A stretch of DNA of 64,000 bases. Source: Liolophura sinensis (Eukaryota > Mollusca > Polyplacophora > Chitonida > Chitonidae). The position numbers and the translations under genes were made by a program. Positions 4,501 to 55,700 of this stretch are shown in pieces; positions within the stretch are counted from its first letter, which is position 1; each line of letters starts with the position of its first letter. Below the pieces are notes generated by a model. The model saw only the letters and a list, made by a program, of their open reading frames with translations. It made no database searches and had not been told where the DNA came from. The stretch is taken from positions 7,825,704 through 7,889,703 of the forward strand of contig NC_088304.1 of NCBI RefSeq assembly GCF_032854445.1, in the 5' to 3' direction.

Positions 4501-7500
4501 TTTAACAACCACCAAGTAAATGCATCAGTGCTCATGTGGCAGACATATATACCAAATTCTCTGATCATTTAACAACCACCAAGTAAATGCATCAGTGCTC
4601 ATGTGGCAGACATATATACCAAATTCTCTGATTATTAAACAACCACCAAGTAAATGCATCAGTGCTCATGTGGCAGACATATATACCAAATTCTCTGATC
4701 ATTTAACAACCACCAAGTAAATGCATTAGTGCTCATGTGGCAGACATATATACCAAATTCTCTGATCATTTAACAACCACCAAGTAAATGCATCAGTGCT
4801 CATGTGACAGACATATATACCAAATTCTCTGATCATTTAACAACCACCAAGTAAATGCATCAGTGCTCATGTGGCAGACATATATACCAAATTTTCTGAT
4901 CATTTAACAACCACCAAGTAAATGCATCAATGCTCATGTGGCAGACATATATACCAAATTTTCTGATCATTTAACAACCACCAAGTAAATGCATCAGTGC
5001 TCATGTGGCAGACATATATACCAAATTCTCTGATCATTTAAGAACCAAGTAAATGCATCAGTGCTCATGTGGCAGACATATATACCGAATTCTTTAATAA
5101 TTAAACAATCAACAATAGATGTATACAAAACAAAACTTTCAGGATTTGACATTAATACTACACTGATATATCCAACATGTATCATGCTTCGTGGAAGAAC
5201 TACGAATAATACAACTGAAGACTCACCTGTAGAGACTGTGATAATTTGACAAAATCTCTCTGTACTGCTTCACTGTTGTCTAAATCCATCTGAAGAGACT
5301 GGAGTTTGGCTCTGTGAGAGAGAGCTTCCTGCTCAAGTTTTGTCTGAAAGGTAAAGTAATTCGTACATATCAAATCTGTTGAATATCCAATATTCCCCAC
5401 CTCGTGCACCAGGGTCGGATACAGCCTTCTAATTCGGGCACCCTTTCAGCCGGGGTCTAGGGGCAACACCCTGGTGGGGGGGTTAGTGGGTAAAAAATAG
5501 CGTAAAATTTGAATGACACAGTCGAAGTACAAGGGTTTTCTGTACCTGTTTATCTACGTCTCAATGCTCTTTTATGGTTGAAAAAAAAAATATATTTACA
5601 GAACTGAAGATTTGCACAGTATTTTTAATAATGATGTACATGTATGATCTATCAATGGATTATACATTTAAGAAAGTACAATGACTTTTTCTGTAAGACA
5701 GACCTGGCTGTTCAATCAAAGTTACTTTCTCAGCACTGGGGTTAAATTTTCATGGGGGAGAGGGGAAAAAAATTGGCTCCAAGTCCCACGCTGCGGTCTG
5801 CGTATTCATCTTTTTTGGGACAGTAAGAAATCGTCCTATTCCTCCACCGGTAGATGAAATCAAATCAGTACGTTTCTCACAAGGGACATAGCTAGAACTT
5901 TGCATATTGTGCGAGTGGCTGGTTGTTTTTGGCCTACTGAGGCATTTTGGCGACTCCAGAGTCAAAAGTTTGTACACACGTACAATGTATTGTAAAGACA
6001 CAAACCACAAGACGGATGTAAATAAACACTAGGAATGAGGTAAAAGGTTGTGCAGTAGTCAACGGCGCAAATGTATGACGAATGGAGGCCACGACAACAG
6101 AGTTGAAATGAAAAACCGCTCGTTAAATCTTCTCTATTTGCCAAATTTAAATTTGAATTGTTCTTTGAATTTGGGCTCTTTTGTTAAGTTTATTTGGGCA
6201 TCTGGGGGGATTTCTTACTTTGGGCGCCAGTAACCGGCATGAAAATCATTCTGTATCCGACCCTGTGTACACAAAGTTGGGCCAGTAGACTGGCGTAAAA
6301 CTAGACCTTAACCAAAAACTTAACTGGACACACAAATGGACTAGAAAAATATCTATATTTCAACTTTCTGTAACTACATATTACCCTGACTATCAAAAAA
6401 CTTCCTGACCATATTGACTCCTTCCTGAGCCCTTTCCACTTATCTCCCCTTATGGTTGACAATCTCCACTGCCCCCTTCACACCTCACCAACACGCTGGC
6501 ATAGTAATCTTGCTTCTTACCACTCTTATCATGACTTAAGACTGCTCCTCCATCTAACCTCCTTACCTTGGCCATGGACTGCTCCACAACCCATCCCCAC
6601 TCCATACCCTGGACTGCTCTTCCACCCATCCCCCTCCTTACCCTGGCCATGGACTGCTCCACCAATCATCCCCACTCCTTACCCTGGACTGCTTCTCCAC
6701 CCATCCCCCTCCTTACCCTGGCTGTGGACTGCTCCTCCACCCATCCCCCTCCTTACCCTGGCTGTGGACTGCTCCTCCACCTGCTGCTGTAGGGCCTGTA
6801 TCAGCTGTTTTGACTTGGCCTGGATACTTTTCAAAGAATGTTCTGTCTCCTTCAGCTTCTGGTCAGATTCATGCCGACAGCTCCTTTCTCGCTCAAGTTC
6901 GGACCTCACACTTTGTAATACAGCTGAAAATACATACAAAAACAATCATATTTTTGAATTGTGAAGCTATTACTTCATGTGTTTCTACTTGAAATCTGCT
7001 AATGACAGGAGGTATGTCAGGTACCTGGTAAAGAGCTGTTTTCTATACACAATTTAGCATACTTTGTGAAACATTCCTGAGTATGCTGTTAAATATGAAT
7101 CAAATAAATAAATACCAGCAAGTCACAAACAAGCCGATGACCAGCCGAACCATCTGATGAACATGAGGCTGCACTACAGATGTTAGGAGTTCCCAATTTT
7201 AACATGTAAGGTACAAAAAGAATCACTAAAATAATTTTAGATTTTTTTTTTTTTTTTTTACATGTGTAAAGGTTGAAGGAATTGCTATTGTGGGTCACAC
7301 ACAGGGAATTGAACTCGAGTTTTCCCATCTTAAATCTAGTACTACTTGTACTAGCATCTGAGCAAAAAGTGAAATTAGTTTTTGAAAGCTGGCATCCTAA
7401 CACATGATTATACAGGGCCATTAACCATTCCAGATCAGACACCTTTCTACGTGATCCTACAGGAGCGAGACAAAGCTCGTGTACAGGTGGGCGCCATCAG

Positions 7501-52700: not shown

Positions 52701-55700
52701 ATCTTCCCAAACTGTTCCCAGATCTGAACTGCCCTCACTGTCCTTATGTCTCATCTACCCAAACTGTCCCCAGGTCTGAACTGCCCTTACTGTCCTTACG
52801 TCTCATCTTCCCAAACTGTTCCCAGGTGTGAACTGCCCTAAGTGTCTTTACATCTCATCTTCCCAAACTGTCCCCAGGTCTGAACTGCCCTAAGTGTCTT
52901 TACATCTCATCTTCCCAAACTGTTCCCAGGTCTGAACTACCCTAACTGTCCTTATGTCTCATCTTCACAAACTGTCCCCAGGTTTGAACTGCCCTAACTG
53001 TCTTTACATCTCATGTTCCCAAACTGTCCCTAGGTGTGAACTGCCCTAACTGTCCTTACGTCTCATCTTCCCAAACTGTCCCCAGGTCTGAACTGCCCTC
53101 ACTGTCCTTACGTCTCATCTTCCCAAACTGTCCCCAGGTCTGAACTGCCCTCACTGCCCTTACGTCTCATCTTCCCAAACTGTCCCCAGGTCTGAACTGC
53201 CCAAACTACCCTTATGTCTCATCTGCCCAAACTGTCCCCAGGTCTGAACTGCCCTCACTGTCCTTACATCTCATCTTCCCAAACTGTCCCCAGGTCTGAA
53301 CTGCCCTCACTGTCCTTATGTTTCATCTTCCCAAACTGTCCCCAGGCCTGAACTGCCTTAACTGTCCTTACGTCTCATCTGCCCAAACTGTCCCCAGGTC
53401 TGAACTGCCCTAACTGTCTTTACATCTCATCTTCCCAAACTGTCCCCAGGTCTGAACTGCCCTCACTGTCCTTATGTCTCATCTTCCCAAACTGTCCCCA
53501 GGCCTGAACTGCCTTAACTGTCCTTACATCTCATCTTCCCAAACTGTCCCCAGGTCTGAACTGCCCTAAGTGTCTTTACATCTCATCTTCCCAAACTGTC
53601 CCCAGGTCTGAACTGCCCTCACTGTCCTTACATCTCATCTTCCCAAACTGTCCCCAGGTCTGAACTGCCCTCACTGTCCTTACGTCTCATCTTCCCAAAC
53701 TGTTCCCAGGCCTGAACTGCCTTAACTGTCCTTACATCTCATCTTCCCAAACTGTCCCCAGGTCTGAACTGCCCTAACTGTCTTTACATCTCATCTTCGC
53801 AAACTGTTCCCAGCTCTGAACTGCCCTCACTGCCCTTACATCTCATCTTCCCAAACTGTCCCCAGGTCTGAACTGCCCTCACTGCCCTTACATCTCATCT
53901 TCCCAAACTGTCCCCAGGTCTGAACTGCCCTCACTGTCCTTACGTCTCATTTTCACAAACCGTTCCCAGGTCTGAACTGCCCTAACTGTCCTTACGTCTC
54001 ATCTTCCCAAACTGTCCCCAGGTCTGAACTGCCCTCACTGTCCTTACGTCTCATCTTCCCAAACTGTCCCCAGGTCTGAACTGCCCTCACTGTCCTTACA
54101 TCTCATCTTCCCAAACTGTCCCCAGGACTGAACTGCCCTCACTGTCCTTATGTCTCATCTTCCCAAACTGTCCCCAGGTCTGAACTGCCCTCACTGTCCT
54201 TACGTCTCATCTTCCCAAACTGTCCCCAGGTCTGAACTGCCCTCACTGTCCTTACATCTCATCTTCCCAAACTGTCCCCAGGTCTGAACTGCCCTAACTG
54301 TCCTTATGTCTCATCTTCCCAAACTGTCCCCAGGTCTGAACTGCCCTCACTGTCCTTACATCTCATCTTCCCAAACTGCCCCCAGGTCTGAACTGCCCTC
54401 ACTGTCCTTACGTCTCATCTTCCCAAACTGTTCCCAGGTCTGAACTGCCCTAACTGTCCTTACATCTCATCTTCCCAAACTGTCCCCAGGTCTGAACTGC
54501 CCTCACTGTCCTTACATCTCATCTTCCCAAACTGTCCCCAGGCCTGAACTGCCTTAACTGTCCTTACATCTCATCTTCCCAAACTGTCCCCAGGTCTGAA
54601 CTGCCCTAAGAGTCTTTACATCTCGTCTTCCCAAACTGTCCCCAGGTCTGAACTGCCCTCACTGTCCTTACGTCTCATCTTCCCAAACTGTCCCCAGGAC
54701 TGAACTGCCCTCACTGTCCTTATGTCTCATCTTGGCAAACTGTCCCCAGGTCTGAACTGCCCTCACTGTCCTTACGTCTCATCTTCCCAAACTGTTCCCA
54801 GGTGTGAACTGCCCTAAGTGTCTTTACATCTCATCTTCCCAAACTGTCCCCAGGTCTGAACTGCCCTCACTGTCCTTACATCTCATCTTCCCAAACTGTT
54901 CCCAGGTCTGAACTGCCTTAACTGTCCTTACATCTCATCTTCCCAAACTGTCCCCAGGTCTGAACTGCCCTAACTGTCCTTATGTCTCATCTTCACAAAC
55001 TGTCCCCAGGTTTGAACTGCCCTAACTGTCTTTACATCTCATGTTCCCAAACTGTCCCTAGGTGTGAACTGCCCTAACTGTCCTTACATCTCATCTTCCC
55101 AAACTGTCCCCAGGTCTGAACTGCCCTAACTGTCCTTACGTCTCATCTTCGCAAACTGTCCCTAGGTGTGAACTGCCCTAACTACCCTTATGTCTCATCT
55201 ACCCAAACTGTCCCCAGGTCTGAACTGCCATAACTGTCCTTATGTCTCATCTTTGCAAACTATTCCAGGTCTGACCTGCCCAAATTGAAGCACCTGACAC
55301 ACTGTCTGAAAGAGACGCTAAGGATGTACCCACCAGTGTCGTATATCTCTCGAAAGCTGTCAAGGGAGATCACTGTGGATGGGAAGAGAGTTCCTGTGGG
55401 AACCAACGTTCAGATACCGATCTACAACATTCACCACAACCCTGAGGTCTGGACTGATCAGATGGTGAGTCAGCCTACAATGAGTTCTCCATGCTTAAAG
55501 CCTCGTTCATCTGGTGTGATCTGTTGAATAGGATCCACGTAATGAAACTGGACAAATTCTGCAATTTATTAATTTTATTTATTTGATTGGTGTTTTATGC
55601 CGTACTCAGAAATATTTCACTTATACAACAGCGGCCAGCATTATGGTGGGAAGAAACCGGGTAAAGCTTGGGTGAAACCCACAACCATTCACAGGTTGCC

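Follow-up and report, generated by a model that had tools for sequence, protein, structure and literature searches.

Why would tandem repeats in a gene settle on the border between an exon and an intron, and do so several times over? The question is raised by a stretch of 64,000 nucleotides from the genome assembly of the chiton Liolophura sinensis (the window; G000:C10:7825704-7889703), which carries a rabaptin gene and a CYP4-like cytochrome P450 gene. The assembly was first labelled L. japonica and its species was later corrected (PMC12441733). In both genes, minisatellite arrays repeat the gene's own exon-intron border. Our results suggest that in chiton genes the border at the start of an intron is duplicated in tandem more often than chance would have it. 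We think that the arrays are probably minisatellites of the "mirage" type, that is, local tandem duplications of a border that are tolerated as intronic sequence, with a bias toward donor (5') splice sites.

Border copies in the rabaptin and P450 genes

Reading frames together with GT/AG dinucleotides fix 59 junctions in the two genes, 30 donors and 29 acceptors. For rabaptin we mapped 19 exons (R2-R20); the first exon was not found by frame reading and tblastn with a RABEP1 query. An exon candidate near 24188 was dropped for want of a clear acceptor. The P450 map (P1-P11) begins at a candidate ATG and stops with exon P11; later exons lie outside it. Exon numbers shift with unseen exons, and the donor that we call R18 (R18d) is that of exon 19 in the first-pass annotation of this window.

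When each junction with 60 nt on either side was compared by blastn with the same strand nearby, border-spanning near-copies appeared at 9 of the 59 junctions (8 of 30 donors, 1 of 29 acceptors). These are the nine borders named by the first-pass annotation, and all of them do carry near-copies of their own exon-intron border. Its statement that the arrays lie on the intron side and leave the exon one junction is also borne out: reading frame and copy direction place the copies on the intron side in 9/9 cases, and in 9/9 the exon keeps one intact coding border. Its count of nine arrays calls for correction, however. Seven of the borders fall inside an array found by Tandem Repeats Finder (TRF), but R8 and R15 are weak, with one full copy each (Table 1). 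A stricter, ungapped test with 24-mers recovers eight of the nine and misses the R15 donor (R15d), whose copy is also absent from the TRF listing. The TRF array at R8 (17642-18062) has a 62-nt unit, lies beyond the exon and retains GGGTAAGG-like sites. At R3, the copy joined to the exon serves as the coding border.

Copies in the window are mostly spaced 34-155 nt apart. The exceptions are 26-nt half units, found in places in the P9 acceptor array (P9a), gaps of 105 and 160 nt in the same array, one spacing of 88 nt in R9 and one of 218 nt in P2. Junction blastn counts 85 copies in P9a, and copy-by-copy scoring 87. Two further candidates were set down to chance: the P11 donor (P11d), with a lone 19-nt match 2.2 kb upstream, and the R10 acceptor (R10a), with a single 24-mer match that lands in the R9 array.

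Table 1. Genes and border-copy features in the window (positions in the window; nt, nucleotides)
Feature	Positions	Strand	Basis and details
Rabaptin gene, exons R2-R20	3824..30048	-	PF09311 matches, tblastn with RABEP1 query, splice sites by frame
CYP4-like cytochrome P450 gene	40587..58410	+	PF00067 matches, tblastn, reading frames
R3 donor array, 88-nt unit	24641..25938	-	Donor after 25871; 13 further border copies; TRF
R6 donor array, 140-155 nt spacing	21403..22186	-	Donor after 22143; 5 copies; TRF, blastn
R8 donor, weak	17642..18294	-	Border 18285; single full copy at 18207 plus partial ones
R9 donor array, 41-45 nt unit	16581..17356	-	Donor after 17309; 15 copies; TRF, blastn
R15 donor, weak	11830..11990	-	Border 11942; single degenerate copy, 80%, 94 nt into intron
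R18 donor array, 34-41 nt spacing	6558..6781	-	Donor after 6757; 5 copies; TRF, blastn
P1 donor array, 56-nt unit	40747..41507	+	Donor after 40775; 13 copies; TRF, blastn
P2 donor array, 148-nt unit, about 100 nt exonic	42372..44485	+	Donor after 42473; 13 copies; TRF
P9 acceptor array, 52-nt unit, 13 nt exonic	50676..55281	+	Last intron base 55268; 85 copies

Placement relative to chance

Within the two gene spans TRF reports 15 arrays, 7 of them with a junction inside; the arrays at 4307, 8974, 14618, 17642, 19242, 44861, 46676 and 56931 have no mapped junction within their TRF limits. Whether this is more than ordinary minisatellite placement would give depends on the null. We dropped per-base repeat coverage for this purpose, because expanded arrays inflate coverage and make it misleading. 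In its place we used a seed permutation, in which one monomer per array is placed at random in the collapsed gene and seeds that are wholly exonic or hold a whole exon are barred. With arrays treated as single seeds in this way, the excess over ordinary placement claimed by the first-pass annotation does emerge: 7/15 arrays include a junction against 1.78 expected (p = 0.0015), split into six donor and one acceptor arrays against 0.9 and 0.88, a figure that is not independent, since the window was chosen for its pattern.

An independent sample covers 275,240 nt in 41 exon-dense loci that surround Pfam matches of chaperonin, myosin and kinesin genes. The loci were selected by inspection from the hit lists of three Pfam families (50, 81 and 132 hits) before repeats were looked at; 182 of the 263 listed hits entered, and the PF00067 list was left out. 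Of the 364 ends of these 182 exon hits, 225 could be resolved (114 donors, 111 acceptors), and introns with both ends resolved supply 106 of these. TRF reports 90 arrays in the sample, 73 of which touch neither an exon hit nor a resolved junction.

Donors lie in 9/90 arrays against 2.2 expected (p = 0.00035), acceptors in 4/90 against 2.2 (p = 0.17). Tested against shuffled placement, a test that the first-pass annotation had proposed for the whole genome, the arrays of the sample are thus enriched at donors but not clearly at acceptors. The junction arrays, which occur in 10/41 loci, number 13/90 when 5 nt or more are required on either side of the junction and 11/90 when the minimum is 10 nt; under the latter threshold donors stand at 9 against 1.87 expected and acceptors at 2 against 1.78. 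Dropping the loci L008, L013 or L038, one at a time, leaves donor p values of 0.0049, 0.0036 and 0.00085. On the donor side the excess lies with the seeds that span the border. These number 9 against 2.17 expected and those in the next intronic bins 3 against 2.62, 4 against 2.42 and 3 against 4.72; arrays that start 0-200 nt into the intron from the donor show no excess in the sample. A preference for donors is therefore supported. Together with the window, border arrays are found in five gene families: rabaptin, P450, chaperonin, myosin and kinesin.

Arrays in the sample have a median length of 286 nt (90th percentile 1371 nt). Those at junctions are longer than the others (median 556 vs 246 nt, p = 0.011) and not significantly richer in copies (9.2 vs 4.6, p = 0.086). 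We inspected five cases by eye; in L004 the border CAAG/gtgagt comes back at intervals of about 109 nt. The counts leave out four arrays (L008:7374, L026, L027, L044) that reach an exon hit but have no resolved junction, and two doubtful rows were kept, the acceptor of L008 at 8672, where AG is present in 0/10 copies, and the array in L038 that spans two exon hits.

In L008 (7374-9101), two neighbouring arrays with 27- and 41-nt units overlap both sides of a stop-bearing chaperonin exon hit. In L038 (5988-8001), a single array spans two kinesin exon hits and copies of both donors overlap; this is possibly an exon duplicated within a repeat field.

Several results weigh against a donor preference, or limit it. 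The raw count of junctions in repeats does not rise above repeat coverage: in the 24-mer test, the share of sampled positions with at least one near-copy is 1142/5245 for the rabaptin span and 1843/3565 for the P450 span, and the per-base test gives no excess. With introns resolved at both ends only, a smaller set, donors fall to 4 against 1.11 (p = 0.022). On the acceptor side of the sample, arrays nominally number somewhat more than expected at 200-400 nt (12 against 7.4) and at 400-800 nt (14 against 9.5), and array density therefore appears uneven in introns. When seeds are matched for GC and G+T content, the expected number of donor arrays rises to 3.39 (p = 0.002), or to 4.40 under tighter tolerances (p = 0.013), which shrinks the excess to 2.0-2.7 fold.

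A second test, in which each sample junction was aligned by blast to its own locus and spanning copies were counted, adds to these points. With at least two copies required, donors (10/114) exceed random collapsed positions (51/1676, p = 0.004), but they are not significantly above sense decoys (8/152, p = 0.33), a set that may contain true donors of exons missing from the annotation, or above acceptors (4/111, p = 0.17); decoy acceptors stand at 5/127. With at least one copy required, donors do not differ significantly from random positions either (12/114 vs 102/1676, p = 0.07). Nor do they differ significantly from antisense decoys with a score of at least 2 (19/361, p = 0.18) or at least 4 (3/88, p = 0.15). 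These self-blast controls are too weak to tell donors and decoys apart. By the seed test, the sample has a donor bias that comes partly from sequence composition.

How the arrays may arise

We propose that tandem duplication first copied a short segment running from the last bases of an exon across the splice site into the intron, and that the array then expanded and contracted as minisatellites generally do. The copy next to the exon would stay coding and be held by selection, and all further copies would be intronic. Growth on the donor side would be tolerated because the true site is transcribed first, and splicing would commit before the copies appear. On the acceptor side growth would be tolerated less, because false sites would come ahead of the true one. 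Under this scheme, splicing would take the donor attached to the exon.

One could also argue that splicing has no part in this and that G/T-rich, donor-like sequence is prone to duplication anywhere. Among the alternatives we take this one most seriously, as a possible if not a probable account. Composition matching does lift the expected number of donors, and copies occur at 28/435 sense and 19/361 antisense decoys with a score of at least 2, compared with 413/10857 and 331/8555 in the four lower-score bins summed. Yet the excess survives matching, and the strongest antisense decoys (score of at least 4), few as they are, lie near background. The first-pass annotation had offered two explanations, of which duplication favoured at donors gains support from the roughly 4-fold excess, but only to the extent that composition matching leaves standing.

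The other explanation was that selection alone acts as a filter: seeds fall uniformly, exonic ones are removed, and those at borders and in introns survive, with no preference for donors. This reading predicts that neither donors nor acceptors exceed the intronic rate. Acceptors fit it, their rate not clearly differing from uniform, as do the nine of nine window cases on the intron side and the lack of a significant difference between donors and acceptors in self-blast. Donors exceed the rate, even though the permutation already bars wholly exonic and whole-exon seeds, and we therefore consider selection alone unlikely to be sufficient.

A process linked to splicing or transcription, such as one involving RNA-DNA hybrids where the exon ends, might duplicate donors directly. 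The confinement of the excess to seeds that span the donor, with none in the next 200 nt of intron, would fit such a process. The sense-strand GC skew that we considered as a sign of RNA-DNA hybrids gave no significant signal (p = 0.07 in the 73 non-junction arrays, p = 0.21 in the 17 exon-touching arrays), and we regard this cause, too, as doubtful. In a wider form the idea would be that 5' splice sites are hotspots of tandem duplication in the germ line, through a process coupled to splicing or transcription, and that ladders of donor sites have come to fill introns independently in two very distant animal lineages, chitons and cephalochordates; we put this forward tentatively, as a speculation.

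Splice signals within the copies

If border copies are tolerated rather than used, one might look for signs that cryptic sites are selected against, and such signs are missing. GT is kept in 50/61 scorable donor copies in the window, AG is kept in 86/87 copies of P9a, and donor strength is mostly kept as well. Across 18 donor cases from window and sample, identity reaches 0.94 at position +1 and 0.98 at +2, compared with about 0.9 at the surrounding positions. Conservation of the splice dinucleotide is similar to that of other positions or slightly higher, and the copies therefore do not look weeded out, which speaks against our reading.

The same conservation could be taken to mean that the arrays benefit the gene as a ladder of reserve or regulatory splice sites. 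We find this very improbable. In 7/8 window donors, use of the inner donor closest to the exon would bring a stop or a frameshift, and the units differ between genes. R9 alone is open and in frame: its first inner donor adds 42 nt without a stop (17309-17267, minus strand), and this copy could serve without wrecking the protein.

Border duplication with tolerated growth makes a further expectation about the copies. Similarity to the exon copy declines with distance in three of the seven window arrays with at least five copies (R18, P1 and P9a), which fits an origin of the array in the exon copy; the remaining four show no significant trend.

That the arrays are an assembly artefact, or repeats collapsed or expanded in assembly, is hardly credible: at 14x coverage and a mean HiFi read of 8.3 kb (accessible text of PMC11068029) few reads would span a 4.6-kb array, and contig C99 carries several mitochondrial units head to tail, but diverged, distinct copies occur at many loci of this HiFi assembly and the sample arrays are well below read length.

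Relation to known systems

The pattern is not unprecedented. Border-spanning repeats were named "mirages" in the amphioxus gene Adh3 and were also seen in the globins BflGb6 and BflGb9, with units of 10-72 nt in Adh3 and 150-160 nt in BflGb6; according to the accessible part of that paper, splicing is apparently undisturbed, lengths are unstable and the origin is called unclear (PMC3087553). The accessible part of a later account adds troponin C and PGBD5 (PMC3902484). To judge from these texts, the likeness is close: tandem repeats run across exon-intron borders at 5' and 3' sites, with AG or GT in many copies. The chiton arrays likewise have a border-spanning unit of roughly 10-160 nt, one intact coding border and the splice dinucleotide in many copies. 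They differ in their host, a mollusc, in their spread over five gene families and in the donor excess found by a placement test. Apparently undisturbed splicing and length variation are reported for the amphioxus mirages, whereas the chiton case is known from a single haploid assembly. Amphioxus itself was rejected as the host of the arrays in the window; a search for GFP-family members gave no match, a result that falls short of proving their absence.

Three other kinds of sequence invite comparison. First, ordinary intronic minisatellites also consist of tandem, imperfect copies, and 73/90 sample arrays are of that kind, but donor placement in the chiton exceeds uniform seeding (9 vs 2.2, or vs 3.4-4.4 with composition matched). 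Second, in the model of Rogers introns are gained by tandem duplication of AGGT proto-splice sites (cited in the accessible part of PMC3087553). There, too, a segment with splice signals is duplicated, but the chiton copies stay within one intron and a new coding exon was not observed. Third, introners are repetitive DNA tied to introns that copy themselves into many genes. In contrast, the two chiton arrays searched genome-wide, R3 and P9a (two of the nine), match only themselves: 7/7 and 31/31 listed matches fall inside the array of origin, and no introner- or transposon-type relatives of these two were found elsewhere in the genome by a search that skips very common words.

No report of splice-border minisatellites in chitons was among the matches listed in our literature searches. 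Two chiton papers, PMC12005716 in its accessible part and PMC7850002, make no relevant mention of minisatellites, satellites or tandem repeats, and the accessible parts of work on earthworm intron minisatellites (PMC12783039) and gastropod hemocyanin introns (PMC7931591) do not describe border-spanning arrays. The phenomenon is thus known from amphioxus; the chiton belongs to a distant phylum and comes with a placement test that we did not meet in the accessible amphioxus literature. Mirages have so far been described gene by gene in amphioxus, and the mollusc genes add a measurable preference for donors. The question of how mirages form becomes testable genome-wide. The arrays also offer a natural setting in which to study the choice of one splice site among many near-identical ones, and the lengthening or gain of introns.

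Other observations

Two arrays in the window repeat splice-like motifs. Between P2 and P3, a 21-nt array (44861-45389; TTGGCATTTGTAAGTGTACTA, about 25 copies) repeats the donor-like GTAAGT and holds no mapped junction. At the window end, a 97-nt array (62077-63756) has a unit with acceptor-like (TTTCCTCAG, TACAG/GTG) and donor-like (GGTGAGG) motifs.

Outside the window, contig G000:C99 holds seven head-to-tail cox1 matches, one of them shorter, at intervals of about 15.5 kb, and a separate copy lies on C632. C99 thus holds a concatemer of the mitochondrial genome that probably arose as an artefact in assembly. The mitochondrial cox1 frame is open under table 5 (8 TGA codons) and lies beside frames assigned to nad2, cox2 and atp6.

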